DNA of 59,797 nt from an uncultured Bacteroidia bacterium (GTDB lineage Bacteria > Bacteroidota > Bacteroidia > Bacteroidales > UBA932). The notes beneath the pieces are model-generated. The model was not told the origin of the DNA and did no database searches. It was given only the letters and a program-made list of their open reading frames with translations. This document shows positions 31,200 to 57,444 of this stretch, piece after piece. The stretch covers positions 1 to 59,797 of the forward strand of contig CACZDC010000011.1 of the NCBI GenBank assembly GCA_902779785.1, given 5' to 3'. Positions within the stretch are counted from its first letter, which is position 1; each line of letters opens with the position of its first letter. The translations under genes and the position numbers were made by a program.

Positions 31200-32360
31200 T
31201 TAAAAAGAAAAAAGTGACAGGGCATCCTCGACAGAAAGGGCATCGGAGAGGCTGAAATCGCCGCTGCGGCTGCGCTCCAGGGCGGCGAGGTGGGCGCCAC
31301 TGCCGAGGGCTTCGCCAAGGTCGCGGGCGAAGGCGCGGATGTAGGTGCCTTTGGAGCATACGATGCGGACCCTTGCCTCCGGCAGGCCGAGGCCCGAAGT
31401 GTCGGCATAGTGGATTCTGGCCGATGCCGTCCCTGCCGTTCCCGCCCCGGCATCTCCTTCCCCTCTGCGGACTAAAACTTTTTCTCCCAACTTATCGAAA
31501 AAGTTTTGTCCGACGCCGGGGGAAAAGCCTGTCGCAGATGCCGGGGCGGCCGGGTATGAGCTCGCAGGACCTGTGGCCACCCCCTGGGGTACCCCAAAAA
31601 AACATGTTTTTTCGGGGGCCCCACCTCCCGGCCTCATAAGGGGGAGGGGCCCATCGCCTGCGATGGGAGGGGTCGGCGAAGCCGACGGTCTCAAGAGCCC
31701 ATACCCGGCCGCCGGGACAGGAGGCTCGCAGGAAGGCAATGTTGCCGGCGCAGAAGACTCGCAGGGGGCCGAAGCCGACGGTCTCAAGGGCTCATACCCG
31801 GCCGCCGGGCGGAAGTCCAGGAGCTCCAAATCACTGATAACGATACGACTGCGGTGAAGCGTCTCGAGGGCAGCCGCGTCAATCTCTGAAAAACGCCCGC
31901 TGCGATAGAGCCGCCGGGCCATTTCGTAGGCGCGGACGCCATCGACGGACTTGGCGCTGAAAAGCGGCGCGACCTGCTCCTGCTCCCCGACAAAGCCCTT
32001 CAGGGCCTCACGGACAGTTTCTTCGCTAATATGCTCGTAAGGATAGCGACGGTCCACTTCCTTTTCCAGATCATAGGAAGGAGTGGAGGCCCCGAAACGG
32101 ATGGTTGCAACGTACTCCTTGTCGTGGTCCTGAAGTTCCTGGGCACGCTTGCAGGCCGGACCTATGCAGACAAGAAGCACCCCGGTGGCAAGAGGATCCA
32201 GGGTGCCGGCGTGGCCGACCTTGAGATTTTTTTTGCGGAAGTGCTTGATGGCCGCATACTTGAGCTTGCGGATTACATCGGCGGAAGTCCACCTCCAGGG
32301 CTTGTCCACGGCAAGGACAATCCCATCGGGATAATCGGCTATATCGTGGCTGAAAGCCAT
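31200..32360 (-). CDS. truB: tRNA pseudouridine-55 synthase with a ~140-residue insertion
   Basis: Makes pseudouridine-55 in the T-loop of tRNAs. Catalytic D55 lies in HAGTLDPLATG; other family blocks are VDKPWRWTSADVIRKLK and VCSKGTYIRAFARDLGEALG. The protein has 386 residues, against roughly 240 in relatives. The excess, about residues 184-322 (31395-31812), sits between RIVISDLELLDFRP and LPEARVRIVCSKGTYIR, is Ala/Pro/Gly-rich, and is built from dispersed palindromic repeats and a 36-bp direct repeat, all in frame. Conserved blocks flank it intact, so the gene may still function. Start at 32360 (MAFSHDIADY) overlaps the rpiB stop as ATGA. Confidence 0.9.
   Translation of the reverse strand: MAFSHDIADYPDGIVLAVDKPWRWTSADVIRKLKYAAIKHFRKKNLKVGHAGTLDPLATGVLLVCIGPACKRAQELQDHDKEYVATIRFGASTPSYDLEKEVDRRYPYEHISEETVREALKGFVGEQEQVAPLFSAKSVDGVRAYEMARRLYRSGRFSEIDAAALETLHRSRIVISDLELLDFRPAAGYEPLRPSASAPCESSAPATLPSCEPPVPAAGYGLLRPSASPTPPIAGDGPLPLMRPGGGAPEKTCFFGVPQGVATGPASSYPAAPASATGFSPGVGQNFFDKLGEKVLVRRGEGDAGAGTAGTASARIHYADTSGLGLPEARVRIVCSKGTYIRAFARDLGEALGSGAHLAALERSRSGDFSLSDALSVEDALSLFSF
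31469..31511. repeat. In-frame palindrome shared with uxaA (truB copy)
   Basis: On the coding (minus) strand GGACAAAACTTTTTCGAT, an 8-nt variable spacer, then AGAAAAAGTTTTAGTCCGC. The arms are inverted repeats differing by one bulged T. The same two blocks occur at 57090-57134 inside uxaA in the opposite orientation relative to the gene. Codes for residues about 284-298 of TruB with no stop. Confidence 0.85.
31571..31675. repeat. Larger palindrome-bearing repeat inside truB
   Basis: Plus strand: GTGGCCACCCCC, GGGGTACCCC, AAAAACATGTTTTTT, GGGGCCCCACC, then AGGGGGAGGGGCCCATCG and CGATGGGAGGGG. The same blocks, in the same order, occur on the reverse complement of 54303-54398. The distal stem is CCCATCG/CGATGGG here and CCCAC/GTGGG in the other copies, i.e. 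stem pairing is kept while sequence differs. Entirely within the truB coding region and open in the truB frame. Confidence 0.85.
31681..31809. repeat. 36-bp direct repeat pair within the truB insertion
   Basis: A 36-bp segment starting GCCGACGGTCTCAAG and ending ACCCGGCCGCCGGG occupies 31681-31716 and 31774-31809, with two differences. The spacing of 93 bp is a multiple of 3, so it appears as repeated AAGY.LLRPSAS-like residues. An inverted, slightly changed copy of its end (CGGCCGGGTATGAG) lies at 31547-31560, on the other side of the palindrome-bearing repeat. Confidence 0.75.
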
Positions 32361-32788
32361 CAAAGCGGAATCTTCTCTATCCTGCGCTCGTGACGTCCGC
32401 CTTCGAAAGGCGTGTCCAGCCAAGTGCGGACAATAGCGGAGGCCATCCTGTAGGAAATGAAGCGGGCCGGAAGGACAAGTACGTTGGCGTTGTTATGGGC
32501 CTTGACAAGACGGCCTATCTCGCAGGACCAGGCCAGACCGGCGCGGATAGCTTTATGATGGTTCAAAGTTATGGCCATACCGTTGCCGGTGCCGCAGAGG
32601 GCTATGCCGAGGTCCACTTCACCGCTTTCTACGGCCGAAGCAAGCCTGTGGGCATAATCAGGATAATCTACCGAGGCTTCCGTGTCCGTACCATAGTTCA
32701 CAACCTCGATACCGCGCGACGAAAGCATTTTCGCGAGCTTGGACTTATATTCCACGCCCGCGTGATCATTGCAGATGCCGATTTTCAT
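32360..32788 (-). CDS. rpiB: Ribose-5-phosphate isomerase B / sugar-phosphate isomerase
   Basis: LacAB/RpiB-family isomerase of 142 residues interconverting ribose 5-phosphate and ribulose 5-phosphate. MKIGICNDHAGVEYKSKL matches the family N-terminus; DYPDYAHRLASAV and the anion-hole loop ALCGTGNGMAITLN are diagnostic. I start at 32788, where ATG overlaps the upstream lipoprotein stop by one base; an upstream in-frame extension lacks family similarity. Couples to truB by ATGA. Confidence 0.93.
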   Translation of the reverse strand: MKIGICNDHAGVEYKSKLAKMLSSRGIEVVNYGTDTEASVDYPDYAHRLASAVESGEVDLGIALCGTGNGMAITLNHHKAIRAGLAWSCEIGRLVKAHNNANVLVLPARFISYRMASAIVRTWLDTPFEGGRHERRIEKIPL

Positions 32789-33612
32789 TATTCTATTCCG
32801 GCTTCGAAGGTTGTCAGGACTAGTCCGGGCATAAGAGCCAGTTTGCGGCGCGTGATTTCCAGGGAACCGGTCTTGGTGTAGGAAGTCCCCTTGATCGGAG
32901 CATCGTTGACGTCGCAATAAGTGATATTCATCTTGGTCAACTCTCCGGTGGGCAGAGGGAGATAGAAGTGACGCGTGTTCGTGGCCTGGGTCGACGGCGT
33001 GAAACGGATACGGACCGAGCTGGAACCGCCTCCGAAGCTCGCGACAGGCTCGGCGGCGGAAAGATCCACATCGAAATCGCCGGTCACCTTTTCGTTGTCG
33101 AAGGTCAGCAGGATGCTGTGGGCAGTGGGGGGAACATTCTTGTAACGGATTCTCAACATACCGCCGACGTGCTTGAATGAAAGACCGCTGCCGGGATTGT
33201 ACTTGGCTATCATCAGAGGATAGGAGTCAGTCGTATCGGCAGGATAGACATATTCTTCAGGGTAATTGACGGTGAGGATATTACCGTTGAGCTTGTGCGC
33301 ACCGGAAGGATAGACGGCGACCGTAGAAGCTTCCACGCCCTCCGGAATGGAGGTTGAGAAGTTCACGGTATTGCTGCCGCCACCGGAGATGACGCTCATC
33401 TGCGAGAAGGAGCCTGCAGTGGTCCAGATATCGGCTTTGTCCCAGTCGTGCCAGATGAACTTGCCCGCGTCGGAGACGTTTGACTTGAGCATATCTTCGG
33501 CCAGAGCCTCACGCGTGGCTCCGATAACGAAGGGACCGTCGGTCTTGGTTTCGCTTTTTGCGCACGCGGCAAGGAGTCCGGCGCTGAAAACAAAGAAAAG
33601 GATTCGTTTCAT
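32788..33612 (-). CDS. Fimbrillin-like lipoprotein
   Basis: The 274-residue protein has a lipoprotein signal (MKRILFFVFSAGLLAACAKS, lipobox LAAC). The mature region resembles the fimbrillin/Mfa-like families of Bacteroidales: AVYPSGAHKLNGNILTVNYP, then LSFKHVGGMLRIRYKN, a hallmark 'F-H-..-L' strand, and HFYLPLPTGELTKMNITYCD. Such proteins are surface anchors or pilins. Lies 4 bp after the HPr-kinase-like gene and overlaps rpiB by one base, an odd operon of surface and core-metabolism genes. Confidence 0.75.
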   Translation of the reverse strand: MKRILFFVFSAGLLAACAKSETKTDGPFVIGATREALAEDMLKSNVSDAGKFIWHDWDKADIWTTAGSFSQMSVISGGGSNTVNFSTSIPEGVEASTVAVYPSGAHKLNGNILTVNYPEEYVYPADTTDSYPLMIAKYNPGSGLSFKHVGGMLRIRYKNVPPTAHSILLTFDNEKVTGDFDVDLSAAEPVASFGGGSSSVRIRFTPSTQATNTRHFYLPLPTGELTKMNITYCDVNDAPIKGTSYTKTGSLEITRRKLALMPGLVLTTFEAGIE

Positions 33613-33616
33613 ATCA

Positions 33617-34705
33617 TTAGGATTTTTGTTCAACTGACATTACAGCCTCGCGGCACACCCGTACGGCCTCCTCGTCGGGACGGCAGGAGAGCTGGAAACA
33701 GGGGACGCTCATTGCAGCACGCTCCACGGTAGGGATGATCTTGTCCATTACGGAATGGTCCCAGCGGATTGTAGAGACCGCGGCGATTACGCTCGCATAG
33801 GCGGAAAGGGTTTCCAGGCGGACTATCTTGTTCTCCGGGGCCTGCTCCAGACGGACAAGGGCCCGGACAGGAGCGCTGACATTGCGATAGCAAAGTGTCT
33901 TTCCGCTCCAGGGAGAGCCGAAGACAATGGCCTTGCCGTCTATGAAACGGATGACAGGATTGTCGTCGTTCATAAGGTCGGATTCAGGGACGAATTCGTG
34001 CCAGAGGCGGCTGTGCGTGCTTTTCCCCGTGCCGCTGACTCCGAAAAACAGCTGGGCCTTGCCTTCGAGACGGGTAACGCTGGCGTGAAGAAGGATAGTA
34101 TCCAAGGCTGCCGTGGCAAAGGTGAACTGGATCATCAGGGACGTATTGATCTGCATCAGCGTCGTCCTGGCCCCTATACGCTCACAGGGATAATAATCCC
34201 CCTTGGAGTAATCCGCGCTCATCACGAAATAACCGGCCCTCAGACCTTTGGCAGGGAAAAATTCATAGATTGTATTGCCATTGTGGCGGTATCCATAATA
34301 GAAAGGAAGTATCTCATCCACGGCCGTGACCATCTTCCACTCTCCTCTCGAGGCCTCCAACTCTTCCGGGACGCCGGAATGGACCCTCAGGCTGAAAAGA
34401 GTCTCGCCGCCTTCGACTTCGAACGGGGCATACTGCTCGAAATCAAGCGAATGCCTGAAGGCATCCTTCTCGGATTCGGAAAAAGTATTCCATATTTCCT
34501 TTGTCATCTGCTCCTTGCCCATCAACTCTTCATTGACGGCAAGGCCCTCCGTCCGGTCCGCCGGAACAGGGATAATGCCTATATCCTCTCCCCTCCGAAG
34601 CTTCTCCACCAAATCTTCCTGGGCCGGAGTAAGAGCCTTGAAAGTCCACGGAGAGTCGAGACTTACACGGATACTATGGCCGGCTATGCGATAAATCTTT
34701 TCCAT
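33617..34705 (-). CDS. HPr kinase/PEPCK-like P-loop protein
   Basis: The 362-residue protein has an uncharacterised N-terminal half and a C-terminal domain with a Walker A loop FFGVSGTGKSTHSRLW, followed by NDDNPVIRFIDGKAIVFGSPWSGKT, the arrangement of HprK-type serine kinases and PEP carboxykinase-like folds. No PTS HPr gene is nearby. Relatives often sit in peptide-modification or surface-protein loci; here the next gene is a lipoprotein. Start chosen at 34705 (MEKIYRIAGHSIRV) because a -7 box ends six bases upstream. Substrate unknown. Confidence 0.75.
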   Translation of the reverse strand: MEKIYRIAGHSIRVSLDSPWTFKALTPAQEDLVEKLRRGEDIGIIPVPADRTEGLAVNEELMGKEQMTKEIWNTFSESEKDAFRHSLDFEQYAPFEVEGGETLFSLRVHSGVPEELEASRGEWKMVTAVDEILPFYYGYRHNGNTIYEFFPAKGLRAGYFVMSADYSKGDYYPCERIGARTTLMQINTSLMIQFTFATAALDTILLHASVTRLEGKAQLFFGVSGTGKSTHSRLWHEFVPESDLMNDDNPVIRFIDGKAIVFGSPWSGKTLCYRNVSAPVRALVRLEQAPENKIVRLETLSAYASVIAAVSTIRWDHSVMDKIIPTVERAAMSVPCFQLSCRPDEEAVRVCREAVMSVEQKS

Positions 34706-34711
34706 ATTCCG

Positions 34712-34742
34712 CAAATATATAATATTCCGCCGAAATATACAA
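34712..34742 (-). promoter_or_regulatory. Promoter of the minus-strand operon, near-leaderless
   Basis: Minus strand: TTG at 34742-34740, a 20-nt gap, TATATTTG at 34719-34712. The ATG at 34705 follows after six bases, close to the expected transcription start. Confidence 0.65.
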
Positions 34743-34834
34743 GAATGCTGATAGATATCAATGATTCTAAGCAAAGAAGAGATATTAAGAATTTTTAACA
34801 AGTACGACGAACCTTAATATATTATTATTTTGTT

Positions 34835-34864
34835 TTGCAACTTGATGTAAAAACATTAACTTTG
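34835..34864 (+). promoter_or_regulatory. Promoter of the phosphoesterase/sus locus, leaderless
   Basis: TTTTG ending at 34837, a 19-nt gap, then TAACTTTG at 34857-34864. The ATG at 34869 starts four bases later, so transcription and translation are expected to begin at about the same base. Divergent from the promoter at 34712-34742. Confidence 0.7.
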
Positions 34865-34868
34865 AACT

Positions 34869-36830
34869 ATGAAATTTAGAAAACTGATAAGCGCTTTTCT
34901 CGCCGTTATCACAGTTTTGGCGGGATATTCTTGCAAGAAGGAAACCCAGGAGGATGGTCCTGTCGATGTACAGTTCCAAGTACCGGAAAAACTTGAAATA
35001 GAGAATGATGCAGCGACTGTAAAGTTCCGCATCCAGTTCGCCAAAGCCCCTGTCAAGGATGACAAAATCATATTCGAAGACCAGGATGCAGCAAGCTATA
35101 CCTGCCCTGTTGTCAGCGTCGGCAGCCAGTTTTTCGAAGTATCCGCAGCCGAACTCTGGCTGAAAGGGGCTTCCGACGGAATCCATCAGGTCTATTTCCA
35201 GAGAGGAAGTTCTCCCAAAAAATTGATGGGCGAGACAAAACTGGTCATCATCTATCCGTCCGAAGGAGTCGAAGTCAAGCCGGCCGCGGGCAGCACGGTC
35301 TACGGACGCGTCAGCTGTGAAGGGAACGGGGTCGAGGGCGTCGCGGTCTCGGACGGCGTGGAAGTGGTCAAGACCGACAAGGACGGAATCTACCAGATGG
35401 CCTCGGGCAAGTACCATAAATACGTGTTCATAAGCATTCCGTCGGGCTACGAGGTTTCCCGCGAAGGGATACTTCCGACTTTCCACAAACAGCTCACCAA
35501 GGCCGCAAATGTTGCGGAAAGGGTGGATTTCACTCTCAAGAATGTCGGTTCTCAGGATGAGCATACAATGCTGATGTTCGGCGACATACACCTCGCTCGA
35601 CGCACCAACGACCGGAATCAGTTCAGCAGCTTCGTAAAAGACGTCAACACCTTCCTCGGCGACAACTCCGGCAAGAAGATCTATGCAATGACTCTCGGCG
35701 ACATGACATGGGACCGGTACTGGATTACCAACAACTACAGTTACAGCGACTACCTCAAAGACGCGAACCAGATAAAAGGTCTCAGCGTGTTCCACACTAT
35801 CGGGAACCACGACCACAGCATGTACTACATGGGCGATTACGACACGGTCAAAGAGTACAAGGAACTCATCGCCCCTACCTATTATTCATTCAATATAGGG
35901 AAGGTCCATTATGTAGTCATGGACGACGTAGAGTGCACCAACGCTACTGCCTCCACGGACGACAAAGGCAACGCCTGCTACGTCCGGGACTATAACGCCA
36001 AGATCGTCAATGACCAGATCTCCTGGCTGCAGAAAGACCTGGCGACCGTCCCGGCGACGACCCCGATAGTGCTGACCATGCACATCCAGCTTCAGAGCGC
36101 CACCGGGGCTACGGCTCTGAAGAATCTCTCAACCCTTAAGCCCCTCCTCAAGCCTTTTAACCAGGTCCATGTCTTCACTGCCCATACCCACACGATTTTT
36201 AACCACGACAACCTTTCCACGGACCACTATTACGAGCATAACGCCGGTGCGATTTGCGGCACCTGGTGGTGGACAGGACAGGAAACTCCCGGAATCCATA
36301 TCGGACAGGACGGTTCCCCGGGCGGATACACAGTGATGACTGTTTCCGGCACCGAACTCAAATGGCAGTTCAAGGGAACCGGCAAGGACATAAAGCATCA
36401 GTTCCGCTCCTACGACCGCAACAATATCCATCTTTCGAACGAAAAATGGATTCCAAGCGCCGATGCCTCCCATGCCAGCCTTTTCAATCCCGGCATCTGG
36501 GGGACAAAATCCTCCGACAATGAGGTCTATGTCAATGTATGGAACTACGACCCCTCATGGACGGTAAGCATCACGGAAGGCGGCAAGGCACTGAGAGTCA
36601 CCAAAGTAAGCGGCATCAAAGACCCCTTGCACCTTATCTCATATACAGCCCACCGGCTGAACAAGAATACATCCATCGGTTTCGAGACCAACACAAATTA
36701 CCATACTTTCAAGGCTACCGCGACCTCTCCCAACTCCACCCTCGAGATCAAGGTCACTGACCGCTTCGGCAATGTCTATACCGAAAGTATGTCCCGTCCG
36801 AAAGCTTTTTCAATCGACAGCTACAAATAA
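34869..36830 (+). CDS. Secreted calcineurin-like metallophosphoesterase lipoprotein
   Basis: The 653-residue protein has a signal ending in GYSC, an N-terminal beta domain (residues ~25-130), a carboxypeptidase-regulatory-like module (YGRVSCEGNGVEGVAVSDG), then the metallophosphoesterase core with all five metal motifs: GDIHLARR, LGDMTWDR, GNHDHS, LTMHIQ and TAHTHT. A C-terminal domain (ATSPNSTLEIKVTDRFGN) completes the MetallophosN/C architecture. Exported and probably surface- or periplasm-facing. It is the first gene of the susCD-type locus, so the substrate may be a phosphorylated glycan or nucleotide; that part is inference. Confidence 0.9.
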   Translation: MKFRKLISAFLAVITVLAGYSCKKETQEDGPVDVQFQVPEKLEIENDAATVKFRIQFAKAPVKDDKIIFEDQDAASYTCPVVSVGSQFFEVSAAELWLKGASDGIHQVYFQRGSSPKKLMGETKLVIIYPSEGVEVKPAAGSTVYGRVSCEGNGVEGVAVSDGVEVVKTDKDGIYQMASGKYHKYVFISIPSGYEVSREGILPTFHKQLTKAANVAERVDFTLKNVGSQDEHTMLMFGDIHLARRTNDRNQFSSFVKDVNTFLGDNSGKKIYAMTLGDMTWDRYWITNNYSYSDYLKDANQIKGLSVFHTIGNHDHSMYYMGDYDTVKEYKELIAPTYYSFNIGKVHYVVMDDVECTNATASTDDKGNACYVRDYNAKIVNDQISWLQKDLATVPATTPIVLTMHIQLQSATGATALKNLSTLKPLLKPFNQVHVFTAHTHTIFNHDNLSTDHYYEHNAGAICGTWWWTGQETPGIHIGQDGSPGGYTVMTVSGTELKWQFKGTGKDIKHQFRSYDRNNIHLSNEKWIPSADASHASLFNPGIWGTKSSDNEVYVNVWNYDPSWTVSITEGGKALRVTKVSGIKDPLHLISYTAHRLNKNTSIGFETNTNYHTFKATATSPNSTLEIKVTDRFGNVYTESMSRPKAFSIDSYK

Positions 36831-36847
36831 TTAATAACCTATTATCT

Positions 36848-39800
36848 ATGAGACGGATTCTAGTCCTTGCTGTGACTGCGCTCCTGGCCCTCTCGCTCTC
36901 TGTGGGCGCCTCGGCACAGACGCGCACAGTGTCGGGCACAGTGCTTGACTCACAGCAACAGCCGCTCGTCGGCGCGGCCGTCCTTGTTTCCGGAACCACA
37001 AACGGAGACGTGACGGGGCTCGACGGAGCGTTCACGCTTCACGTCCCTTCGGGAGACGTGACGCTGGAAGTCTCCTGCCTCGGCTACAGCACTAAAACCA
37101 TAGCAGTGCCGGCCACGCAGGCAAAAATCAGCGTCATCCTCGAAGAGGACAACATGATGCTGGAAGAAACCGTAGTCGTCGGCTACGGCGTCCAGAAAAA
37201 AGTCAACCTTACCGGTGCCGTCACGGCAGTGGACGCCAAGGAGCTTGCGGACCGTACCTCCCACAACCTTACCAATATGCTGCAGGGTTCGGTCCCCGGC
37301 CTGAACATCACCACTTCGGCGGGTAACCCCGGCAGCGCCGGCAGCCTCAACATCCGTGGTGTCACCTCCATCAACGAGGCTGATCCTCTGGTGCTCATCG
37401 ACGGAGTCGAAGGAGACCTTTCAAGGGTCAATCCAGACGACGTGGCGAACATCTCCGTAATCAAGGACGCTTCGGCCGCGGCCATCTACGGCGCACGAGC
37501 GGCCTACGGTGTCATCCTAGTCACGACCAAATCCGGCTCCGACAAGGGCGGGAAGGCCACGGTACGCTACAGCGGCCGTTTCGGCTGGGAAGAGCCGACA
37601 GTGTCGACGGACTTTGAAACCAGAGGCTACTGGTCAGTCTATACCGTGGACAAGTTCTGGGCGACGGATGCCGGAAAGCATTACACTGGCTATACTGAAC
37701 ACGATATGGCCGAACTTCTCGCCCGAGTAAACGACGTGACGGAAAATCCCGCACGCCCCTGGGTAGTGGAAGAGGTCAGGAACGGACGCAAGCAGTGGAT
37801 TTACTATTGCAACACCGACTGGTACCACGAACTCTACAACGACCAGCACCCGGAGCTTACGACCGCCAGACCGGTGTCATCAAACTTCACCCTGACATCT
37901 ACCAGAAATATAATCTGCGCGCCAAGGTCGATGCCCGGCTGAACAAGTTTATGAGATTCTCCAACAACAGCTCTTTCTTCAGCTCATCCTACAATTATCC
38001 CGGAGGAAGCAGCATCCAGGATTCCTTTGCGTATTCTTCTCGTCACGCCCTGGCCTCCTTCCCCCTGAAGAATCCCGACGGAAGCTGGCTCTATGCGACC
38101 CCGCTGATTACCGGCGGAAACTACAATGTTGCAAACGGCCGTCATCTGGTCTTCGGGCAGTACAAGCACCGCAACCAGCAGCTGAGGACTGATTTTATGA
38201 ATACGAGCGAACTGAAGATCACTCCTTTCAAACAGCTCACCCTCACCGCCAACTATACCTACCGGATCTACCAGAACCGCAATCAGTATCGTAGCGCGAA
38301 CTTCGAGTATCGCAGCTATCCTGAAGCGGATTATGAGTACTACACCACAGATGCCGGCCTGGACGAGCTTACGGAAGCCATCACGACCTCACAACGTCAC
38401 GCAATCAACACCTACGCGACTTACGAGGACAGTTTCGCCGACGCCCATCATCTGACGGTCACCGCCGGTATGAATATGGAAAGCTGGGCTTCCAAGGCGG
38501 TCGGAGCGAAAGGCCAAAACCTGAGTTCCGAAACCCTCAACGACCTTGATCTTGTAGTTCCGGATGCAACAGGCAATGTGATTACCGAAGTTTCCGGCGG
38601 ACAGAACGAGTACGCCATAATGGGTTTCTTCGGCCGCATCAACTATGACTACAAGGAGCGCTACCTGCTGGAGATTTCCGGCCGATATGACGGCACCTCA
38701 CGCTTTATGCCCGGACACCGCTGGGGCTTCTTCCCCTCGGGTTCTCTGGGCTGGAGAATCTCAGAAGAGCCCTTCTTCTCCCCCGCCAGGAAATATGTCG
38801 ACAACCTGAAGCTCAGAGTCAGCTACGGCCGACTCGGCAACCAGGTCGTACGCACCTCCTCGGGAGCCCAGAACTACTATGCCTACCTGAGGAAGATTTC
38901 CATCAATGACTTCGAAGGTTACACTTTCGGCGAGGGCACCACGATGTCGAAGTATTCCACGCTCAGCGCCCCGGTGGACGCAGAACTCACCTGGGAGACA
39001 GCCGAACAGATCAATGCCGGCATTGACATCGCGGCCCTCCGTAGCCGGCTTACTTTTACCGGTGAAATCTACCAGAGAAACACCTTGAATATGCTGACCG
39101 CCGGCCCGGACCTTCCTGCAGTTTTCGGCGCATCCGCACCTCAGACCAATGCCGCCGACCTCAAGACCTACGGCTACGAACTGTCCCTCGGATGGAGAGA
39201 CCAGTTCAAACTCTTCGGACTGCCTTTCGGCTATTCTGTCCGCGGGACCCTGAGTGACTACCGTTCTTATATCACTCGCTTCAACAACCCCACCAAGTCC
39301 CTGACCATGGCCTATTACGAGGGCATGCGCATAGGCGACATCTGGGGCTTCGAGGTTGACGGCCTTTTCGAATCCGACGAGCAGGCCCAAAAGTACACTT
39401 CCGAAGTTCTTGACTGCAGCTATATAAACGGCCGTATGACAGGAGGCTTCCTCGCCGGAGACCTTCGCTTCGTGGACCAGGACAATGACGGCCACTACAA
39501 ACTGGATGACAAGAACCAGTATGTGCTGGATGAAAACGGGAACCGTATCCTTCTCCCCGAGAGCGAATGGCGAGTCAACACCTTGGGCCTCGGGGCCAAT
39601 ACCGTCGACAATCCCGGCGACCGCAAGATTCTGGGCAACAGCCTTCCGAGCCTCCAGTACGGATTCACTCTCGCTTTCGATTATTTCGGTTTTGACGTAT
39701 CCGCTTTCTTCCAGGGCACCGGCAACCACTACTGGTACCCGGCCGGAATGAACTATATGTTCTGGGGACCGTACAGCTACTCCTATCTGAGCTTCCTGCA

Positions 39801-49901: not shown

Positions 49902-50010
49902 AACTACTCCCCTTTTATGATAGACAAGTGATTACACATTTTTATTATGCAAAACAAAGATATACAATTATTTCTTCAAGACAGCAGAGGCGTGTGAAAA
50001 AATATTTGTG

Positions 50011-50048: not shown

Positions 50049-50079
50049 CCGTCGGAATACAACTTAAATTCTATAAACT

Positions 50080-50883
50080 ATGGCAAATCCATTCTCCCTT
50101 GAAGGCAAGAATGCCTGGATCACAGGCGCTTCCTACGGCATCGGCTTCAACATCGCCAAGGCGTTCGTGGCGGCCGGAATCAAAAACATCATCTTCAACG
50201 ACATCAACGAGGCAGCCCTCGAGCGCGGACTCAACAACTACAAAGAGGCCGGAATCGAGAATGTCCACGGCTATGTCTGCGACGTCACTGACGAAGTGGC
50301 CGTAAAGGCTTTGGTGGAGAAAATCCACGCCGAGGTCGGCCAGATCGACATCCTGGTGAACAACGCCGGCATCATCAAGCGCATCCCTATGCACGAGATG
50401 GAGCGCAGGGAGTTCCAGCAGGTCATCGACGTGGACCTCGTCGCCCCGTTCATCGTTTCCAGCGCAGTCCTTCCCGAAATGATGGAGCGCCGCGAGGGCA
50501 AGATCATCAATATCTGCTCGATGATGTCGGAACTCGGCCGCGAGACCGTCAGCGCCTATGCGGCAGCCAAGGGCGGACTGAAGATGCTCACCCGCAACAT
50601 CTGCTCAGAATACGGCGAGTACAATATCCAGTGCAACGGCATAGGTCCCGGCTACATCGCAACGCCCCAGACCGCTCCTCTTCGCGAAAAGCAGCCCGAC
50701 GGCAGCCGCCATCCTTTCGACAGCTTCATCTGCGCCAAGACTCCGGCAGGCCGCTGGCTTGAGCCCGAAGAGCTGGGAGGCCCGGCAGTTTTCCTCGCCT
50801 CGCACGCCTCTGACGCCGTAAACGGCCATATCCTCTATGTTGACGGCGGTATCCTCGCCTATATCGGAAAACAACCTCAGTAA
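50080..50883 (+). CDS. kduD: 2-dehydro-3-deoxy-D-gluconate 5-dehydrogenase
   Basis: Short-chain dehydrogenase reducing 2,5-diketo-3-deoxygluconate to 2-keto-3-deoxygluconate in pectin/uronate catabolism. The 267 residues show the NAD loop ITGASYGIGFNIAKAF, NNAGIIKRIPMHEM and the catalytic YAAAKGG (Tyr-x-x-x-Lys), with substrate-region CNGIGPGYIATPQTAPLR. First gene of a three-gene operon; kduI follows 3 bp later. Confidence 0.93.
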   Translation: MANPFSLEGKNAWITGASYGIGFNIAKAFVAAGIKNIIFNDINEAALERGLNNYKEAGIENVHGYVCDVTDEVAVKALVEKIHAEVGQIDILVNNAGIIKRIPMHEMERREFQQVIDVDLVAPFIVSSAVLPEMMERREGKIINICSMMSELGRETVSAYAAAKGGLKMLTRNICSEYGEYNIQCNGIGPGYIATPQTAPLREKQPDGSRHPFDSFICAKTPAGRWLEPEELGGPAVFLASHASDAVNGHILYVDGGILAYIGKQPQ

Positions 50884-50886
50884 TAT

Positions 50887-51732
50887 ATGTCAAAAGTCAA
50901 TTGCACAGTGCGCCAGGCGTCAAGCAACGTCGACGCGAAACACTATGATACCGCTCGCCTCCGCAGCGAATATCTTGTAGAAAACGTAATGGTCCCCGAT
51001 GAGATCAATATGGTCTATTCGATGTTCGACCGCATTATCGCAGGCGGCGCAGTTCCGGTAAAGGAAGAACTCGTCCTCACTCCCCCGGAGATTCTCCGTG
51101 CCGAATATTTCACCCAGAGGCGCGAGATTGGCATCATCAATGTCGGCGGCACCGGCATCGTGAAAGTCGGCGACGAAGAATATACCATCCCTTTCAAGGA
51201 GGCCCTCTACATCGGCCGCGGCAACCGTCACGTCTCCTTCCGCAGCCTGGATCCGGAGAATCCCGCGAAGTTCTATTTCAATTCCGCCACCGCCCACCGC
51301 GAGACCGGAGTGAAGAAGGTCAGCAAGAAGGACGCCGTCGTGATGCATCTCGGCTCACTTGAAGAGAGCAACGAAAGGACCATCAACCGCCTGCTGGTCA
51401 AGGAAGTAGTCCCCTGCTGCCAGCTTCAGATGGGTATGACCGAACTTGCTCCCGGATCGACCTGGAACACTATGCCGGCCCATACCCACGACCGCCGTAT
51501 GGAGGTTTACTTCTACTTCGAAGTCCCGGATGACGCTGCCGTCTGCCACTTTATGGGAGAGCCTCAGGAAACCCGTCACATCTGGATGCACAACGAGCAG
51601 GCCGTGATCAGCCCGCAGTGGAGCATCCACGCCGCCAGCGCAACCCGCAACTATACCTTCATCTGGGGAATGTGCGGCGAGAACGACGACTACGGTGATA
51701 TGGATGTCTGCAAGACAAGCGAACTGAAGTAA
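50887..51732 (+). CDS. kduI: 5-keto-4-deoxyuronate isomerase
   Basis: Converts 4-deoxy-L-threo-5-hexosulose uronate to 2,5-diketo-3-deoxygluconate, directly upstream of KduD in the pathway. The 281-residue cupin carries the metal-binding cluster AHTHDRRMEVYFYFEVPDD (two histidines and a glutamate) and the third histidine in QWSIHAASATRNYTFIW. Length matches the family (about 278). Its stop shares a base with the next start. Confidence 0.95.
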   Translation: MSKVNCTVRQASSNVDAKHYDTARLRSEYLVENVMVPDEINMVYSMFDRIIAGGAVPVKEELVLTPPEILRAEYFTQRREIGIINVGGTGIVKVGDEEYTIPFKEALYIGRGNRHVSFRSLDPENPAKFYFNSATAHRETGVKKVSKKDAVVMHLGSLEESNERTINRLLVKEVVPCCQLQMGMTELAPGSTWNTMPAHTHDRRMEVYFYFEVPDDAAVCHFMGEPQETRHIWMHNEQAVISPQWSIHAASATRNYTFIWGMCGENDDYGDMDVCKTSELK

Positions 51733-52589
51733 TGAAAAAGATCATTCTTATTCTGACAGCCGCTGCACTGGCGGCTGTCAGCTGCAAAAGTCCGGAGCAG
51801 AAGGTGATGGCGCGTGCCGTCCCCGAACGGGCTGACGATTTTGTCTTCGAGAACAATCTGATTGCCGGCCGTTTCTATGGCCAGGCGCTTGAAGGTAACC
51901 CCACCTCCCCCGGCCTCGACATCTGGGTAAAGCTTCCCGGAAAACTGGTCGCCGACGAGTGGTACAAGGGAGCCCTCGAAGACCCCGGCTACTATCACCA
52001 CGACCACGGCGGCAAGGACTGCTACAAAGTGGCTGTATCCCTCGGCGGAGGCGCTTCCGTGCCGATTATCGGCGGTACATTGTGCTATCCTGCAACCAAT
52101 TACCGCAGCTATGAGATTCTGGAGCAGAGTCCGGACAAAGTTGTATTCGCCCTCCACTATCCCGAGTGGGAAGCCGCCGAAGGCGTTTTCGTGAGCCTGG
52201 ACAAAAAGGTCAGCGTCGTGGCCGACAGCTACTTCACTTCCGTAGAAGACAGCTACAGTTTTAGTGGCGCAGATTCCCTGACCATAGCCGCCGGCATCAA
52301 ACTCCACGGAGCACAGCAGACCCTGGTCGATTCCCTCGAAATTTCCGACCGTTACGCCATCTGGGAAAAAGCCTCCGACCAGAGCATCGAGCCCGAAGAC
52401 GGGATGCTCGGAGTCGCACTGGTCCTTCCGGGCGCCGACGGCCTCCTCGTCTCGCACGAACTTGACCACGCCCTCCTTCTCAAGACCATCACCTCCGGCG
52501 AAAGCGTCGCCTACAGCATCGGCTCCTGCTGGTCCAAAGGCGAGATCACAAGTTCCGCCGACTGGTTCAAACTTGTCGCCGGGCGCTGA
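51732..52589 (+). CDS. DUF4861-family lipoprotein of a pectin locus
   Basis: The 285-residue lipoprotein (lipobox AAVSC) matches the DUF4861 family, which recurs beside kduI/kduD in Bacteroidetes pectin loci. Landmarks: DDFVFENNLIAGRFYGQALE, LDIWVKLPGKLVADEWY, then HHDHGGKDCYKVAVSLGGG, a conserved His/Asp patch, and a C-terminal YSIGSCWSKGEITSSADWF. It may be a periplasmic accessory or lyase-like enzyme; function is not established. Last gene of the operon, 38 bp before the 106-bp element. Confidence 0.83.
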   Translation: MKKIILILTAAALAAVSCKSPEQKVMARAVPERADDFVFENNLIAGRFYGQALEGNPTSPGLDIWVKLPGKLVADEWYKGALEDPGYYHHDHGGKDCYKVAVSLGGGASVPIIGGTLCYPATNYRSYEILEQSPDKVVFALHYPEWEAAEGVFVSLDKKVSVVADSYFTSVEDSYSFSGADSLTIAAGIKLHGAQQTLVDSLEISDRYAIWEKASDQSIEPEDGMLGVALVLPGADGLLVSHELDHALLLKTITSGESVAYSIGSCWSKGEITSSADWFKLVAGR

Positions 52590-52626
52590 AGCGCTTCCTG
52601 ATCGAGCCTTGGGCTTGTTTCGGCCC

Positions 52627-52732
52627 GTGAAATGCAAGTATGTGACTTGCAAATACTTACAAAAAATCGTCTATGTGGTTTTACATAGACGATTTTGCAT
52701 AACTGGCTGGTGCTCAACAATTTGCATTTCAC
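52627..52732. repeat. 106-bp nested palindromic element, copy D
   Basis: Outer ends GTGAAATGCAAGTA and TTTGCATTTCAC. Centre: AAAATCGTCTATGT (52663-52676), a 6-nt loop, ACATAGACGATTTT (52683-52696), perfect 14 bp. Placed between convergent DUF4861 and exuT genes, where it could terminate both. Confidence 0.9.
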
Positions 52733-52749
52733 GGCAAAAATCAGCACCG

Positions 52750-52801
52750 CTAAAGCTCAGAACGAGTGACTACGCCTAAAGCTCAGAACGAGTGACTACG
52801 C
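52750..52801. repeat. Perfect 26-bp tandem duplication across the exuT stop
   Basis: A 26-bp unit beginning CTAAAGCTCAGAACGAG occurs twice in a row (52750-52775, 52776-52801). The second copy covers the exuT stop codon (52796-52798), so the duplication altered or extended the gene's 3' flank. Both copies are identical, so it looks recent. Confidence 0.85.
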
Positions 52802-54247
52802 CTCGATCGGCTTGTACTTCGGCACAAGGGCCTTCATAATGCTCCAGGCGATGAGGTAAGCGATACCGCAGAAGCAGAACATAATGAAGTAACCGGCAGG
52901 CTTGCCGCTGAAGCCGAGGAAGGTGAAAGCATCACCCATCTGCTCGGAATAGGTAAAGAGCTTACCTGCAATCTTTTGGATGAACATCGACCCCACACCG
53001 CCGGCCATTGCGCCGATACCGGTGACAGTGGCGATGGTGCTCTTCGGGAACATATCACCGATGGTTGAGAAGAGGTTAGCGCTCCAGGCCTGATGTCCTG
53101 CGGCGGCAAGGCCGATCAGGATTGCGGGCCACCAGGGCGAATTGAAATGGATGCCGAGGGGCTGGGCGAAAAGCGCCGCAATCGGGAAGAAGGCGAAGAT
53201 GAGCATAGCCAGCATACGGCCGGCATAGGGGTTCATTCCCTTCTTGTCCACGAAAATCTTCGGCAGGTAGCCTCCGCCTATGGACACGACCGTCACTATG
53301 GCATAAAGGGTGAAGATCAGGGCCTGGCCGAGACCGGAAGTCGCGGGGGCGTTGAACTGGTTCGAGAAATAGGACGGGGCCCAGAAGAGGAAGAACCACC
53401 ACACACCGTCGGTGAAGAACTTGCCGGTGATGAAGGCCCAGGTCTGCTTGTAACCGAAGCACTGGAGCATAGGGATGGACTTTTCTGCGGCGATGGCAGC
53501 CTTTTCGGCAGCCTCGGCGGCGTCGTCCTGATGGATATACTCAATCTCGGCGGCGTTCACCCTCTTGCTCTCCTCCGGCTTGTCATACATAAAGGCCCAG
53601 AAGAACATCCAGATGAAGCCCAGTCCGCCGATGATGATGAATGCCCATTCCCAGCCGAGAGCCTTGGCAAGCGGCGGGATGCAGAGCGGAGCGGCAAGGG
53701 CGCCGACCGACGCACCGGCGTTGAAGATGGAGGTCGCGAAGGCACGGTCCTTCTTCGGGAAGTACTCGGCGGTCACCTTGATGGCTGCCGGGAAGTTTCC
53801 GGCCTCACCGAGAGCGAGGATGCCACGGCAGAGCAGGAAGAGATAGACCGAGGTCGTGGATATGGCCAGGGCGGCGTTGGAGCCTATTTCGACGGCACGC
53901 ATAGCTGCGACGGATTCCATTCCGGTGAGGTGGGCGGTTGCCCAGCCGCAGGCGGCGTGGAGGCAGGCGCCGGCCGACCAGACGCCGATGGCGATCAGAT
54001 AACCTTTCTTCGTGCCCATCCAGTCCACGAATTTGCCGGCGAAGAGGCAGCAGATTGCGTAGAAGATGGAGAAGAAGGCCGTGATCGTGCCATAGTGGTC
54101 ATCCGTCCAGTGGAACTCGGGCTTGATGAATTCCTCGTAGGTCAGCGAGAGTACCTGGCGGTCCAGGTAGTTGACGGTAGTGGCCACGAAAAGCAGGCTG
54201 CAGAGCCACCAGCGCCAGTTTGTCATCAGTTTACTGTTTGTTGACAT
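52796..54247 (-). CDS. exuT: Hexuronate/MFS transporter (ExuT-like)
   Basis: Major-facilitator protein of 483 residues with about 12 membrane helices, typical of the anion:cation symporter group that imports galacturonate and glucuronate. Landmarks: VATTVNYLDRQVLSLTYEEF (the YxDR motif of the family), GKFVDWMGTKKGYLIAIGVW, LGEAGNFPAAIKVTAEYFPK. Placement after uxaC-uxaA-uxaB supports hexuronate as cargo. A 183-bp spacer with a palindrome-bearing repeat separates it from uxaB. Confidence 0.9.
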   Translation of the reverse strand: MSTNSKLMTNWRWWLCSLLFVATTVNYLDRQVLSLTYEEFIKPEFHWTDDHYGTITAFFSIFYAICCLFAGKFVDWMGTKKGYLIAIGVWSAGACLHAACGWATAHLTGMESVAAMRAVEIGSNAALAISTTSVYLFLLCRGILALGEAGNFPAAIKVTAEYFPKKDRAFATSIFNAGASVGALAAPLCIPPLAKALGWEWAFIIIGGLGFIWMFFWAFMYDKPEESKRVNAAEIEYIHQDDAAEAAEKAAIAAEKSIPMLQCFGYKQTWAFITGKFFTDGVWWFFLFWAPSYFSNQFNAPATSGLGQALIFTLYAIVTVVSIGGGYLPKIFVDKKGMNPYAGRMLAMLIFAFFPIAALFAQPLGIHFNSPWWPAILIGLAAAGHQAWSANLFSTIGDMFPKSTIATVTGIGAMAGGVGSMFIQKIAGKLFTYSEQMGDAFTFLGFSGKPAGYFIMFCFCGIAYLIAWSIMKALVPKYKPIEA

Positions 54248-54302
54248 TGTATTAGATTATTGATTCAGTATGTCTTTTTTCCAATACCGTCTCACTTCGT
54301 TC

Positions 54303-54398
54303 GACCCCTCCCACTTCGTGGGCCCCTCCCTCTTACGCGGCCGAGGGTGGGGACCCCTAAAAACATGTTTTTTGGGGTACCCCGGAGGGTGGCCACGG
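54303..54398. repeat. Palindrome-bearing repeat between uxaB and exuT
   Basis: A 34-bp palindromic core (54351-54384, centre AAAAACATGTTTTTT, arms ACCCC/GGGGT) is flanked by exact 8-bp direct repeats GAGGGTGG at 54343-54350 and 54385-54392. The surrounding block CCCTCCCACTTCGTGGG ... GCGGCCGAGGG matches the copies at 31571-31675 (inverted) and 12443-12495 (inverted, without the core). It lies on the 5' side of exuT, so it could affect operon read-through. Confidence 0.85.
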
Positions 54399-54430
54399 GT
54401 CTTGGAAATAAGACATACTTACAAATATAA

Positions 54431-55870
54431 CTAAATAATTGATTTCACAGCCTCCCTCATACCAGATTTTTGAATCAACGCCAGGTCGGCGGCAAGAAGA
54501 TCGGTAAGGCCGGGGATACGATTGAGGTCTTCGCCCCAGATGAACTCGTCGGCGAGAACGCCTTCAGCGACTTTACGGACGTCGCCCGTAGCCCATAGAT
54601 TCTTCAGCAGTTCCATAATCTTCGGGTCGTCGTTGGGGACGATTTCGTCCTCTCCCCTCTTGCCGCCCTTGTAGTAGGTGCAGATGCCGGCAAGGCCGAG
54701 CACCAGGCCCTTGGGCAGTTCGCCCTTGCGCTCGAGATAGGTCTTTAGGCCGGGCAGGTCGCGGGTCTTGAATTTCGGGAAACTATTCAGCATGATGGAC
54801 GTGACGAAATGCTTCACAAAGGGGTTGCGGAAGCGCTCCAGCACGTCGCCGGCGAACTTTTCAAGTTCTTCGACAGGAAGATTCAGCGTCGGCAGGAGTT
54901 CGTCGTACATAACCTTATGGACAAAGGCTCCGACCTCCGGATCCTCGCAGCACTCCTTGACGGTATTCAGGCCGCTGAGGTAGCCGACCGGGGAAAGGAC
55001 GGTATGGGGGCCGTTCAAAAGGGTGACTTTCCTCTCGTGGTACGGGGCCTCGGAAGGGACGAAGAGGACGTTCAGGCCGGCCTTGTCGGCAGGGAATTCG
55101 GCGGCGACTTCCTTCGGGGCCTCTATTACCCATAGGTGGAAGATTTCGGCCTTGTCGAGAAGGCGGTCTTCATAGCCTACTCTTTCACAGAGCTGGGCGG
55201 CGGTATCGCGGGGATAACCGGGGACGATACGGTCCACGAGGGTGGAGTATACACCGCAGGCCTCTTCGAACCAAACGGCGAAGTCCGGTCCAAGATTCCA
55301 CAGGTCGATGTACTGACGGATGCACTCTTTGAGATGCTTGCCGTTCTCGAAGATTAGTTCGCAAGGGAATATGATGAGTCCCTTGCTCTTGTCGCCCTTG
55401 AAGTGCTCGAAGCGGTGATACAAAAGTTGGGTGAGTTTGCCGGGATAGGACGATGCCGGGGCGTCGGAGAGTTTGCACGCCGGGTCGAAGGCAATGCCCG
55501 CCTCCGTGGTGTTGGAAATCACGAAACGGATGCTTTCCTGCTCCGCAAGTTTCAGATAAGCCTGGAAATCCGTGTAGGGATTCAGACCGCGGGACACTAC
55601 GTCGATGAGGTCCACGCTGTCGATGGCTTCGCCCTTCAGAAGTCCCTGAAGGTTAAGATGATAGAGGCCGTCCTGCTCATTGAGCCATTCGACCATGCCC
55701 TTTTCGATGGGCTGGACCACGACGACCGAGCCGTTGAAGTCCGTCTTCTGGTTAGTCTTCCAGATAATCCACTCGATAAAGGCGCGGAGGAAGTTACCCT
55801 CTCCGAACTGGATGACCTTCTCGGTGTACTTTTTCGCCTGCGGGGCGCTTTTACGGTTTAATCTTTCCAT
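54431..55870 (-). CDS. uxaB: Tagaturonate reductase (altronate oxidoreductase)
   Basis: NADH-dependent enzyme of the mannitol dehydrogenase family, interconverting D-tagaturonate and D-altronate. The 479 residues have the N-terminal cofactor region KVIQFGEGNFLRAFIEWII and the catalytic K-x5-N-x2-H arrangement in RKVTLLNGPHTVLSPVGYLS. It follows uxaA by 11 bp in the same transcript, between UxaC (isomerase) and UxaA (dehydratase) in pathway order. Confidence 0.93.
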   Translation of the reverse strand: MERLNRKSAPQAKKYTEKVIQFGEGNFLRAFIEWIIWKTNQKTDFNGSVVVVQPIEKGMVEWLNEQDGLYHLNLQGLLKGEAIDSVDLIDVVSRGLNPYTDFQAYLKLAEQESIRFVISNTTEAGIAFDPACKLSDAPASSYPGKLTQLLYHRFEHFKGDKSKGLIIFPCELIFENGKHLKECIRQYIDLWNLGPDFAVWFEEACGVYSTLVDRIVPGYPRDTAAQLCERVGYEDRLLDKAEIFHLWVIEAPKEVAAEFPADKAGLNVLFVPSEAPYHERKVTLLNGPHTVLSPVGYLSGLNTVKECCEDPEVGAFVHKVMYDELLPTLNLPVEELEKFAGDVLERFRNPFVKHFVTSIMLNSFPKFKTRDLPGLKTYLERKGELPKGLVLGLAGICTYYKGGKRGEDEIVPNDDPKIMELLKNLWATGDVRKVAEGVLADEFIWGEDLNRIPGLTDLLAADLALIQKSGMREAVKSII

Positions 55871-55881
55871 ATATCAGTGTT

Positions 55882-57444
55882 TTATAAAGTTACTCCCTGT
55901 TTGAAGATTGCAATCTCGCGGTAGTTGTGCTTTTCGTTGTTGACGGCTTCGCCGGAAGCGACGGCGAGGACATAGTCGGTGAAACGCTCTGCGACCGAGT
56001 CCATAGGTTCCCCCTGGGCGAGGACACCGGCGTTGAAGTCAATCCAATTCGGCTTGTTCTCGAAAAGCGGTGTATTGGTCGATATTTTCATTGTCGGGAC
56101 AAAGCTTCCGAAGGGGGTGCCGCGGCCTGTAGTGAAGAGGACTATCTGGCAGCCGGCGGAAGCGAGGGCCGTCGAAGCCACGAGGTCGTTGCCTGGGGCG
56201 CTGAGAAGGCTCAAACCCTTGACGCTCAAGCGTTCACCATAGCGAAGTACGCCTCTAACTATGGACTTGCCGCACTTCTGAGTGCAGCCGAGAGACTTCT
56301 CCTCAAGCGTAGAAATCCCGCCCGCCTTGTTGCCAGGGGAAGGGTTCTCATAGACCGGCATTCCCTGCTTCATAAAGTACTCCTTGAAATCGTTGATCAG
56401 CGAGACGGTCTTCTCGAAGGTCGCCTCATCCTGGCAGCGGTTCATAAGGATAGTCTCCGCGCCGAACATTTCCGGAACTTCCGTAAGCACGGTCGTTCCG
56501 CCCTGGGCCACGATCCAGTCTGAGAAAACACCCAGAAGAGGATTGGCCGTAATGCCGCTGAGACCATCCGAGCCGCCGCATTTGAGGCCGACGCGAAGCT
56601 CGCTCACCGGAACCGGCTCGCGTACATCCTTAGACGCGATGGCGAATATTTCCCGAAGCAGCCCAAGGCCATACTCCACTTCGTCCTTGACCTTCTGGGT
56701 CACGAACATCCTGACACGCTTCTCATCCACCGGCCCGACCAGCTCCCTGAATGCGTCCAGCTGGTTGTTCTCGCAGCCGAGGCTGACCACCAGCACGCCT
56801 CCGGCATTGGGGTGATGGACCATATCCGAAAGCACGGTGCGCGTATTCTCGTGGTCATTGCCGAGCTGCGAGCAGCCGTAGTTATGAGGAAACGCGACAA
56901 TCGCATCAATACTCCCCTCTTGACCGGCAATCTCAACCTTGAAACGCCTCACTATCTCTTCGCAGATCCCGTTGACACAGCCCACCGTCGGAATCACCCA
57001 GATCTGGTTCCTCACTCCCACCTGACCGTCTGCCCTCCGGAATCCAAGGAATGTACGCTCCGCTTTCCCATTGCTCCCATCGCCGGAGGGGACAAAACTT
57101 TTTCGATCCCTTGTGGTAGAAAAAGTTTTAGTCCGCGACGGCCCCACCGGAGCAATCTCACCGTCAGTAAACGACGGCTCATATTTATACTCAAGCAGTC
57201 CCTCAAGGTTAGTCTTGATGCAGCTGTGGTCAACGACCGTCCCGGCCTCCGCGTCCCTCGTCACGTGCCCTATCGGAAAACCATACTTGACAACGTCCTC
57301 CCCCGCCTTGAGCGGCCTGAGGACAATTTTGTGCCCGCGCGGAACATCCGTGAGCAGCTGCACGCCCTCGACGAGCTCGCCCTTTGCGAGATCCTCAAGC
57401 GCAACCGCTACATTGTCCGCCGGATTGATTTTGATGTATTTCAT
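55882..57444 (-). CDS. uxaA: Altronate dehydratase with in-frame palindromic insertion
   Basis: Dehydrates D-altronate to 2-keto-3-deoxygluconate. The 520 residues start with a SAF-like domain (GHKIVLRPLKAGEDVVKYGF) and continue with the catalytic domain (GVRNQIWVIPTVGCVNGICE, FPHNYGCSQLGNDHENT, CGGSDGLSGITANPLLG). Relatives are near 495 residues. The linker between the domains (about residues 99-128, IAPVGPSRTKTFSTTRDRKS and on) is extra, low in similarity, and is encoded by the palindrome at 57090-57134. The domains themselves look intact. Start at 57444, one base after the uxaC stop. Confidence 0.92.
   Translation of the reverse strand: MKYIKINPADNVAVALEDLAKGELVEGVQLLTDVPRGHKIVLRPLKAGEDVVKYGFPIGHVTRDAEAGTVVDHSCIKTNLEGLLEYKYEPSFTDGEIAPVGPSRTKTFSTTRDRKSFVPSGDGSNGKAERTFLGFRRADGQVGVRNQIWVIPTVGCVNGICEEIVRRFKVEIAGQEGSIDAIVAFPHNYGCSQLGNDHENTRTVLSDMVHHPNAGGVLVVSLGCENNQLDAFRELVGPVDEKRVRMFVTQKVKDEVEYGLGLLREIFAIASKDVREPVPVSELRVGLKCGGSDGLSGITANPLLGVFSDWIVAQGGTTVLTEVPEMFGAETILMNRCQDEATFEKTVSLINDFKEYFMKQGMPVYENPSPGNKAGGISTLEEKSLGCTQKCGKSIVRGVLRYGERLSVKGLSLLSAPGNDLVASTALASAGCQIVLFTTGRGTPFGSFVPTMKISTNTPLFENKPNWIDFNAGVLAQGEPMDSVAERFTDYVLAVASGEAVNNEKHNYREIAIFKQGVTL
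57090..57134. repeat. In-frame palindrome shared with truB (uxaA copy)
   Basis: Plus strand: GGACAAAACTTTTTCGAT, a 10-nt variable spacer, AGAAAAAGTTTTAGTCCGC. The two blocks are identical to those in truB (31469-31511), while the spacer differs. Arms of 15-16 bp pair with one bulged base. Relative to the coding strand it is inverted compared with truB, yet open in both genes. Confidence 0.85.

Follow-up and report, generated by a model that had tools for sequence, protein, structure and literature searches.

How does one and the same palindrome come to lie in frame inside two unrelated genes? The question is raised by a 59,797-nucleotide stretch of DNA (positions 1 to 59,797 of contig CACZDC010000011.1, assembly GCA_902779785.1; hereafter, the window) from an uncultured bacterium of the Bacteroidales lineage UBA932, in which the genes truB and uxaA share a palindromic element. 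A first-pass annotation of the window had reported this coincidence, and we confirmed it: read on the minus strand, both copies have the order GGACAAAACTTTTTCGAT, spacer, AGAAAAAGTTTTAGTCCGC, with a spacer of 8 bases in truB and 10 bases in uxaA. The exact double-block pattern occurs at 2 places in the 2.78-Mb genome (reversed control pattern, 0), and a looser palindrome pattern and a covariance model return the same two places alone, with no third copy in the 2.78 Mb. Our explanation, which we hold with a probability of about 0.8, is that both copies belong to a family of dispersed palindromes of ~60 bp, lying in frame in protein linkers and loops, which would have spread by transposition of a folded single strand and insertion at hairpin tips, the survivors being translated. 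Judged from sequence, the family and the placement of its copies in frame can be held with high confidence, the hairpin-tip mechanism with much less; translation, mobility, and a mobilizing enzyme are what we infer.

The features on which the comparison rests are the following.

31200..32423, minus strand: truB reading frame, 407 amino acids as listed, with the element in a long variable loop.
31460..31520, plus strand: the truB copy of the palindromic element, in reversed orientation to its gene (56 bits with model R1).
31442..31455, plus strand: left outer arm CCGCCCCGGCATCT of the truB copy, a 14-base perfect inverted match to 31536-31549.
31536..31549, plus strand: right outer arm AGATGCCGGGGCGG of the truB copy, the inverted match to the left arm.
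55882..57444, minus strand: uxaA (altronate dehydratase) from its likely ATG, with the element in the linker that joins the SAF domain to the second one.
57081..57143, minus strand: the uxaA copy of the palindromic element, encoding RTKTFSTTRDRKSFVPS, in forward orientation to its gene (67 bits with model R1).
57070..57077, no strand assigned: first short outer arm of the uxaA copy, ATTGCTCC, an 8-base perfect inverted match to 57149-57156.
57149..57156, no strand assigned: second short outer arm of the uxaA copy, GGAGCAAT, the inverted match to 57070-57077.

Pfam assigns the two host genes to TruB and to a UxaA-type altronate dehydratase, and the true start of truB is probably internal to the listed frame. 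Both reading frames are open across the element, as the first-pass annotation had stated. Its statement that both copies run opposite to their genes holds for truB (reversed) and fails for uxaA (forward), so that there is no common orientation. The positions that it gave, a loop in TruB and the inter-domain linker in UxaA, were correct, whereas its claim that relatives have no sequence there was not: UxaA proteins without an insert have a linker of 16 to 18 residues, and the TruB loop is very variable in length. By sequence comparison, the element is extra sequence within an existing linker or loop rather than a set of residues at an otherwise empty position. Both copies fold well as DNA (z-scores against 200 shuffles, −4.07 in truB and −4.00 in uxaA); the 121-nucleotide truB hairpin that includes the outer arms is far better than its shuffles (z-score, −6.49), and the extended uxaA hairpin is weaker (−3.21). 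No known structured RNA was matched in the window at the Rfam gathering score.

The two copies proved to be members of a larger family. A first pattern search of 61 genomes identified the element in the relatives G005 and G019, and it is also present on several Bacteroidales contigs, some of them labeled rumen or reticulum. The wider profile search that had been proposed for the palindrome, run with a covariance model built from 21 related copies and accepting E values up to 0.001 within the genus, recovered the family from 29 of the 300 genus genomes sampled; its copies could be sorted into those inside and those outside recognized genes. In a sample of 99 genomes from the bacterial family, the window's own genome was the sole match (0 of 92 from other genera). 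Most carriers (26 of 29) have one to three places, and G005, G245, and G208 have at least 8, at least 13, and at least 17, respectively, these high counts being lower bounds because the model search scored no more than 17 candidates per genome; two further whole copies in G208 were found later, beyond its 17 places. Altogether, 14 carriers have at least two places and the remaining 15 a single one. These palindromes form one family of short dispersed elements, the full form of which was found in one genus of gut Bacteroidales alone among the genomes searched. The restriction to one genus is claimed for the full element alone, because the bare inner-arm palindrome recurs more widely, in at least 116 stretches from many phyla; over all 116 listed loci, the model scored up to 38.8 bits outside Bacteroidales (e.g., on the Clostridia contigs JAFYOX and JAFQFS).

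Some Clostridia contigs have, at several places, shorter palindromes that share the AAACTTTTTC/GAAAAAGTTT arms, namely L037, L044, L060, L112, and L140 (JAFQFS), L030, L094, and L123 (JAISER), and L056 (JAFYOX).

From left to right, the element has an outer arm, a single unpaired base with no counterpart on the right, an inner arm of 11 bases that is mostly AAAACTTTTTC, a variable center, and the complementary inner and outer arms. Its length is ~60 bp, with a stem of 11 inner and 5 to 6 outer base pairs and, in most rows, a center of 12 to 18 bases. The inner arms served to select sequences and the outer arms did not. In the 21-copy alignment, 10 of 20 pairs had changed on both sides, with a covariation score of 0.173 (shuffled mean, 0.060; 0 of 500 shuffles as high), a score slightly biased toward pairing by the orienting of rows according to the better outer match; the count of further pair types was matched by 12 of 500 shuffles.

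We read 84 rows of this family, corresponding to 83 distinct copies (L219 is the same place as L033). Gene calls were made by Pfam scans of spanning open frames and by similarity to the TruB of the window and to UxaA. In total, 32 of the 83 copies lie in frame inside recognized genes of ten families, a fraction that is not independent throughout by descent and is biased to survivors, since open frames spanning the element alone were examined and any broken genes would have been missed. These coding rows comprise 13 rows in 12 genes for UxaA, 9 for TruB, 2 each for UDP-glucose dehydrogenase and a 4Fe-4S protein, and 1 each for FolC, TilS, UvrA, MatE, a glycosyltransferase, and an M16 peptidase; seven copies near presumed gene starts (L017, L032, L209, L214, L225, L245, and L246) were left out of the count. 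In 27 of the 32 rows, the gene (UxaA, TruB, UDP-glucose dehydrogenase, FolC, TilS, or the glycosyltransferase) carries the element between Pfam domains, as placed by Pfam coordinates for part of these rows and by homology for the rest. The M16 peptidase copy sits within a domain. One uxaA gene (L025, 990-1125) contains two tandem copies in frame, with differing outer arms.

Both orientations are used in genes, including within UxaA, and the 32 coding rows use five of the six reading frames (17, 4, 1, 7, and 3 rows), yielding unrelated peptides from different frames (e.g., SRTNFFSPEKRSKKSCPTP, LRGLKLFLPKKVEKVLSDSG, and GVGQNFFDKLGEKVLVRRG). It is thus the DNA, rather than a peptide, that is conserved. 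A recurring KTFS...EKVL reading, found in several genes, could be taken to mean that the encoded peptide is selected for a function in the protein, with the palindrome as a by-product; given the unrelated peptides from five frames and the close relatives that have no element, we regard this as very improbable. Six rows with CTAG-type centers have stops in every frame, and all six lie outside recognized genes. The center of the UvrA copy is related to the CTAG type, yet it is open in the frame used.

Outside recognized genes, 29 of 51 copies are located within 40 nucleotides behind the stop of an open frame of at least 200 codons, compared with 1.74 expected for random positions in the same loci. 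This location near gene ends is what would be expected if the two window copies were ordinary terminators, or merely alike by chance. That alternative is refuted, and its probability negligible, by the pattern controls (0 matches), by the distribution obtained with the covariance model, and by the 32 copies inside recognized genes, with which a terminator-only role, named in advance as a possible refutation of the in-frame element, fails.

The in-frame copies represent additional sequence in their proteins. In UDP-glucose dehydrogenase, residues 178 to 210 occupy the place of 3 residues in the solved structure 3pid, and the relatives L367 and L368 have a short linker; residues 461 to 499 of UvrA compare with five residues in 7sh1, and residues 184 to 349 of the TruB query (166 residues) compare with residues 146 to 166 (21 residues) of the solved TruB 1sgv. 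The UxaA linker measures 16 to 18 residues in short rows and about 33 to 57 in carriers. Relatives with versions lacking the insert, which had been called for as a check, are present for UxaA (G034 and other short linkers), and the window uxaA can be aligned with the short-linker G034 sequence before and after its insert. This same UxaA linker is the site of two loop types, which are oppositely oriented.

A UxaA tree was computed with the linker removed from 40 rows, i.e., 30 loci (of 47 genomes with a match) and 10 further carriers, so that carriers are over-represented. In 18 of these proteins the linker is short (at most 20 residues by script anchors; L161 and L170, which hold a repeat-like peptide, are included), in 12 it carries the element, and in 10 it carries another insert. 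The element label required 9 changes on the tree, at least 3 of them forced by well-supported branches, and none of 200 bootstrap trees (0%) united it in a single group. With shuffled labels, values were as low in 86 of 500 cases; therefore, the element label hardly follows the UxaA tree. Separate trees force 2 changes for the N-terminal domain and 3 for the C-terminal part. The idea that the N-terminal domain travels with the insert found no support, as in both separate trees there are close pairs of which one member has the insert and the other a short linker.

Four close uxaA pairs (L148/L155, L087/L155, L147/L157, and L145/L156) have flanks that are 75 to 93% identical and a wholly replaced linker with sharp borders. 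Because the entire linker, and not the element alone, differs in these pairs, an exchange of linker alleles is possible: short-tract recombination would have carried old alleles, with or without the element, from species to species, and the element would have ceased to move. In pairs such as L148/L155 and L087/L155, the linkers can hardly be aligned. We nevertheless consider this account unlikely, since the family is present in ten different gene families as well as behind genes, and in either orientation, a spread that exchange at one locus could not produce, and since the window uxaA matches G034 on either side of its insert.

Other repeat-like peptides were seen in the same linkers of some relatives (CHPERSEGS/CHPERSE, CHSERSEES, PSVPELVEG, and MPDQVG types), i.e., in L145, L148, L151, and L161 for UxaA, L356 to L360 for UDP-glucose dehydrogenase, and L386 and L395 for TilS. 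The linkers of these three proteins thus seem to accept several unrelated repeat families.

Many copies are embedded in longer hairpins. Perfect inverted arms of at least 8 bp were detected within 24 bases outside the element in 31 of 82 copies (1.85 expected from dinucleotide shuffles), these 31 not being independent events because homologous copies in one gene were counted separately. The arms are concentrated in copies without a TACCC loop (29 of 50; 1.33 expected) compared with those having one (2 of 32; 0.52 expected), and they vary from gene to gene yet remain complementary. In a comparison of seven homologous copies in TruB, changes on both sides were seen in 5 of 25 pairs (matched in 1 of 500 shuffles), including one pair in the outermost arm; further pair types were not unusual (77 of 500 shuffles).

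Such arms, which are specific to a place and nevertheless complementary, and the matched changes on both arms of homologous TruB copies are also what would result if template switching during replication maintained the perfection of the palindromes and extended them, one flank being copied inverted to the other side with no transposase needed for upkeep. In three cases in UxaA (L033, L087, and L218), there is overlap between one arm and the conserved KYEP codons, and the other arm resembles an inverted copy of the first (by eye). This account leaves unexplained how one core sequence arrived at many loci, and the arms of several nongenic copies resemble terminators (by eye) that would predate insertion. 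We regard it as possible, with the odds somewhat against it.

Terminator-like arms were observed by eye in the G208 copies L250:2291, L254, L257, L260, L261, and L262, all outside genes. In the TruB loops of L176, L177, L182, L186, L188, and L189, other nested palindromes were noted by eye, with complementary, species-variable arms of up to about 28 bp. The TruB loop of the window contains similar material.

31560..31810, no strand assigned: other repeats and palindromic segments of this TruB loop, dissimilar to the element (by eye).

The transposition of folded single strands that we favor would proceed as follows. Copies would spread as a folded single strand, moved by an enzyme that is probably of the HUH type and acts in trans. 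Insertion would prefer the tip of an existing hairpin, a preference by which terminators and earlier palindromes become preferred targets and nested palindromes build up; the arms described above suggest such insertion at hairpin tips. In-frame, stop-free copies at a permissive linker would survive and be translated as inserts of roughly 18 to 30 residues, with no required peptide function. A stronger form of this proposal, which we advance only tentatively and would not bet on, is that the element is specific for the tips of DNA hairpins (i.e., terminators and gene-lodged palindromes), each insertion making its site longer and safer, with truB as a cross-phylum docking gene. If this were true, truB and the uxaA linker would be stacked, translated nests of unrelated palindromes with covarying arms.

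Several observations weigh against this explanation. In addition to the survivor bias of the coding fraction and the possible exchange of linker alleles, the model scores outside Bacteroidales (up to 38.8 bits) overlap those of the three weakest rows of the genus (34.8 to 38.3 bits). No target-site duplication is definable at the copies, and the element flanks no Y1 transposase gene in 50 loci covering 42 of 51 Y1 places. As for the hairpin-tip step, no empty site was found with a hairpin predating insertion, and the UxaA arm that overlaps the KYEP codons fits the inverted copying of a flank.

Rickettsia palindromic elements (RPEs; Ogata 2000 and Ogata 2002, as cited in PMC10969869 and PMC3733652) are reportedly dispersed palindromes lying in frame in unrelated, apparently functional genes. 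The parallel with them drawn by the first-pass annotation holds in mode of occurrence: the element is dispersed, in frame in unrelated genes, in both orientations, and mostly between domains, and relatives without the insert exist. As to the traits of RPE type, there are several copies per genome in 14 of 29 carriers, in-frame copies in ten gene families, and insert-free relatives for UxaA and UDP-glucose dehydrogenase. The R. conorii truB is among the genes carrying RPE-1 (PMC3733652), and truB is common to both systems, which are compared here by mode of occurrence. The element differs from RPEs in its phylum, in its length (about 60 bp, against about 150 bp for RPEs [PMC10969869]), and in having covarying outer arms and a position at the tip of longer hairpins.

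Intragenic repetitive extragenic palindromes (REPs) have been described in uvrA and truB of several species, truB being hit in several Proteobacteria, and some families lie inside larger palindromes (PMC3733652). The GTAG and CGTC REPs resemble the element in being short palindromes mostly behind genes, with some intragenic copies and with uvrA and truB as targets (PMC3733652). On the basis of this comparison and of RPE-1, truB looks like a recurrent site across phyla. The first-pass annotation knew of no such element in Bacteroidales. As a general statement this is weakened by the CGTC-tagged palindromes, which are listed for five phyla including Bacteroidetes (PMC3733652); it stands insofar as the present element falls outside their definition. 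CGTC REPs have a terminal CGTC (or TGTC/CCTC) tag, a stem of 8 to 9 bp, a loop of 4 to 5 bp, and an unpaired tail fitting CCA (PMC3733652), whereas the element has no conserved terminal tag, a longer two-part stem, and a larger center (by eye). Nor is there a conserved GTAG end in the 84 rows (by eye); many TACCC-type rows do have a GTAG, but within the loop. The literature searched yielded no description of the present element. By analogy, the element appears to work like RPEs and intragenic REPs in an unrelated lineage, and by definition it is neither a GTAG nor a CGTC REP.

Miniature inverted-repeat transposable elements (MITEs) with intragenic copies, such as ERIC, are likewise small, nonautonomous, dispersed, and able to fuse in frame (PMC10969869). 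Arms are present in the element, and neither an autonomous partner nor a target-site duplication was definable. Lone unpaired arms (pattern TCCGCGGACTAAAA), which would mark a larger autonomous element, were absent among the hits read, some unlisted hits of G208 being left unread; counts of TCCGCGGACTAAAA exceed those of the reversed control in G208 (17 and 7 versus 3 and 6) and slightly in G245, and nowhere else. Two of the G208 hits missing from the genome search proved to be the further whole copies mentioned above.

Translated palindromes have so far been known mainly from Rickettsia, other bacteria contributing scattered cases of intragenic REPs. An independent family in a Bacteroidales genus, with dozens of comparable genomes and the same linkers repeatedly hit by unrelated repeats, makes the gain, loss, and tolerance of inserts measurable. 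The target choice of elements without a dedicated transposase is left open in PMC3733652, and the covarying arms within reading frames, together with the hairpin-tip position, provide a testable lead on how short palindromes choose their targets. Annotators should expect inserts of this type, of roughly 18 to 30 residues, in proteins from these genomes.

A candidate mobilizer lies next to one of the copies in the window.

30036..30971, minus strand: IS200-like Y1 (HUH) transposase gene beside truB, flanked by its own, different palindromes.

The element could accordingly be a REP-type sequence mobilized by this enzyme, as a transposase resembling the REP-associated tyrosine transposases (RAYTs), or by another Y1 enzyme of the genus. 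Of 17 genomes examined, 14 gave Y1_Tnp matches (those of 13 exceeding the family cutoff), the gene of the window is 0.5 kb from the truB copy, Y1 genes of G005, G061, and G240 are 2 to 6 kb from a copy, and the REP-RAYT association is established (PMC3733652 and PMC6006769). Five of the 50 Y1 loci hold a copy 0.5 to 5.6 kb from the gene, four of the five having been fetched because a copy was already known nearby. We find this origin doubtful: none of the Y1 genes studied in the genus is flanked by the element, many are flanked by other palindromes, and Y1 genes above the cutoff are present in G097, G120, and G068, three of five genomes chosen as element-free (in G016, matches are below the cutoff only, and G076 has none; absence of the element is individually listed for G016, G097, and G068). 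The REPtrons and the Bacteroidetes RAYT subclass 2.6 (PMC6006769) offer a likeness in that the genus has HUH Y1 genes with unusual hairpins nearby, one of them beside truB, and a difference in that the element flanks none of the Y1 genes examined. A RAYT as direct mobilizer is unsupported: of the Y1 genes examined, many have other palindromes at their flanks (by eye) and none has the element.

Around the Y1 genes themselves, the flanks of 40 of the 50 loci were inspected by eye, and other palindromes, varying from gene to gene, surround many of the genes. Four genomes have a copy of the element that is a few kilobases or less from a Y1 gene but does not flank it (G005:C18, G061:C1, G240:C17, and G000:C11). 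The palindrome that flanks the Y1 gene of the window (about 29935-30036 and 31090-31200) reads AAATCGTCTATG...CATAGACGATTT and is unlike the element. A stretch resembling the 3' end of truB (by eye) also follows a Y1 gene in G203 (L353).

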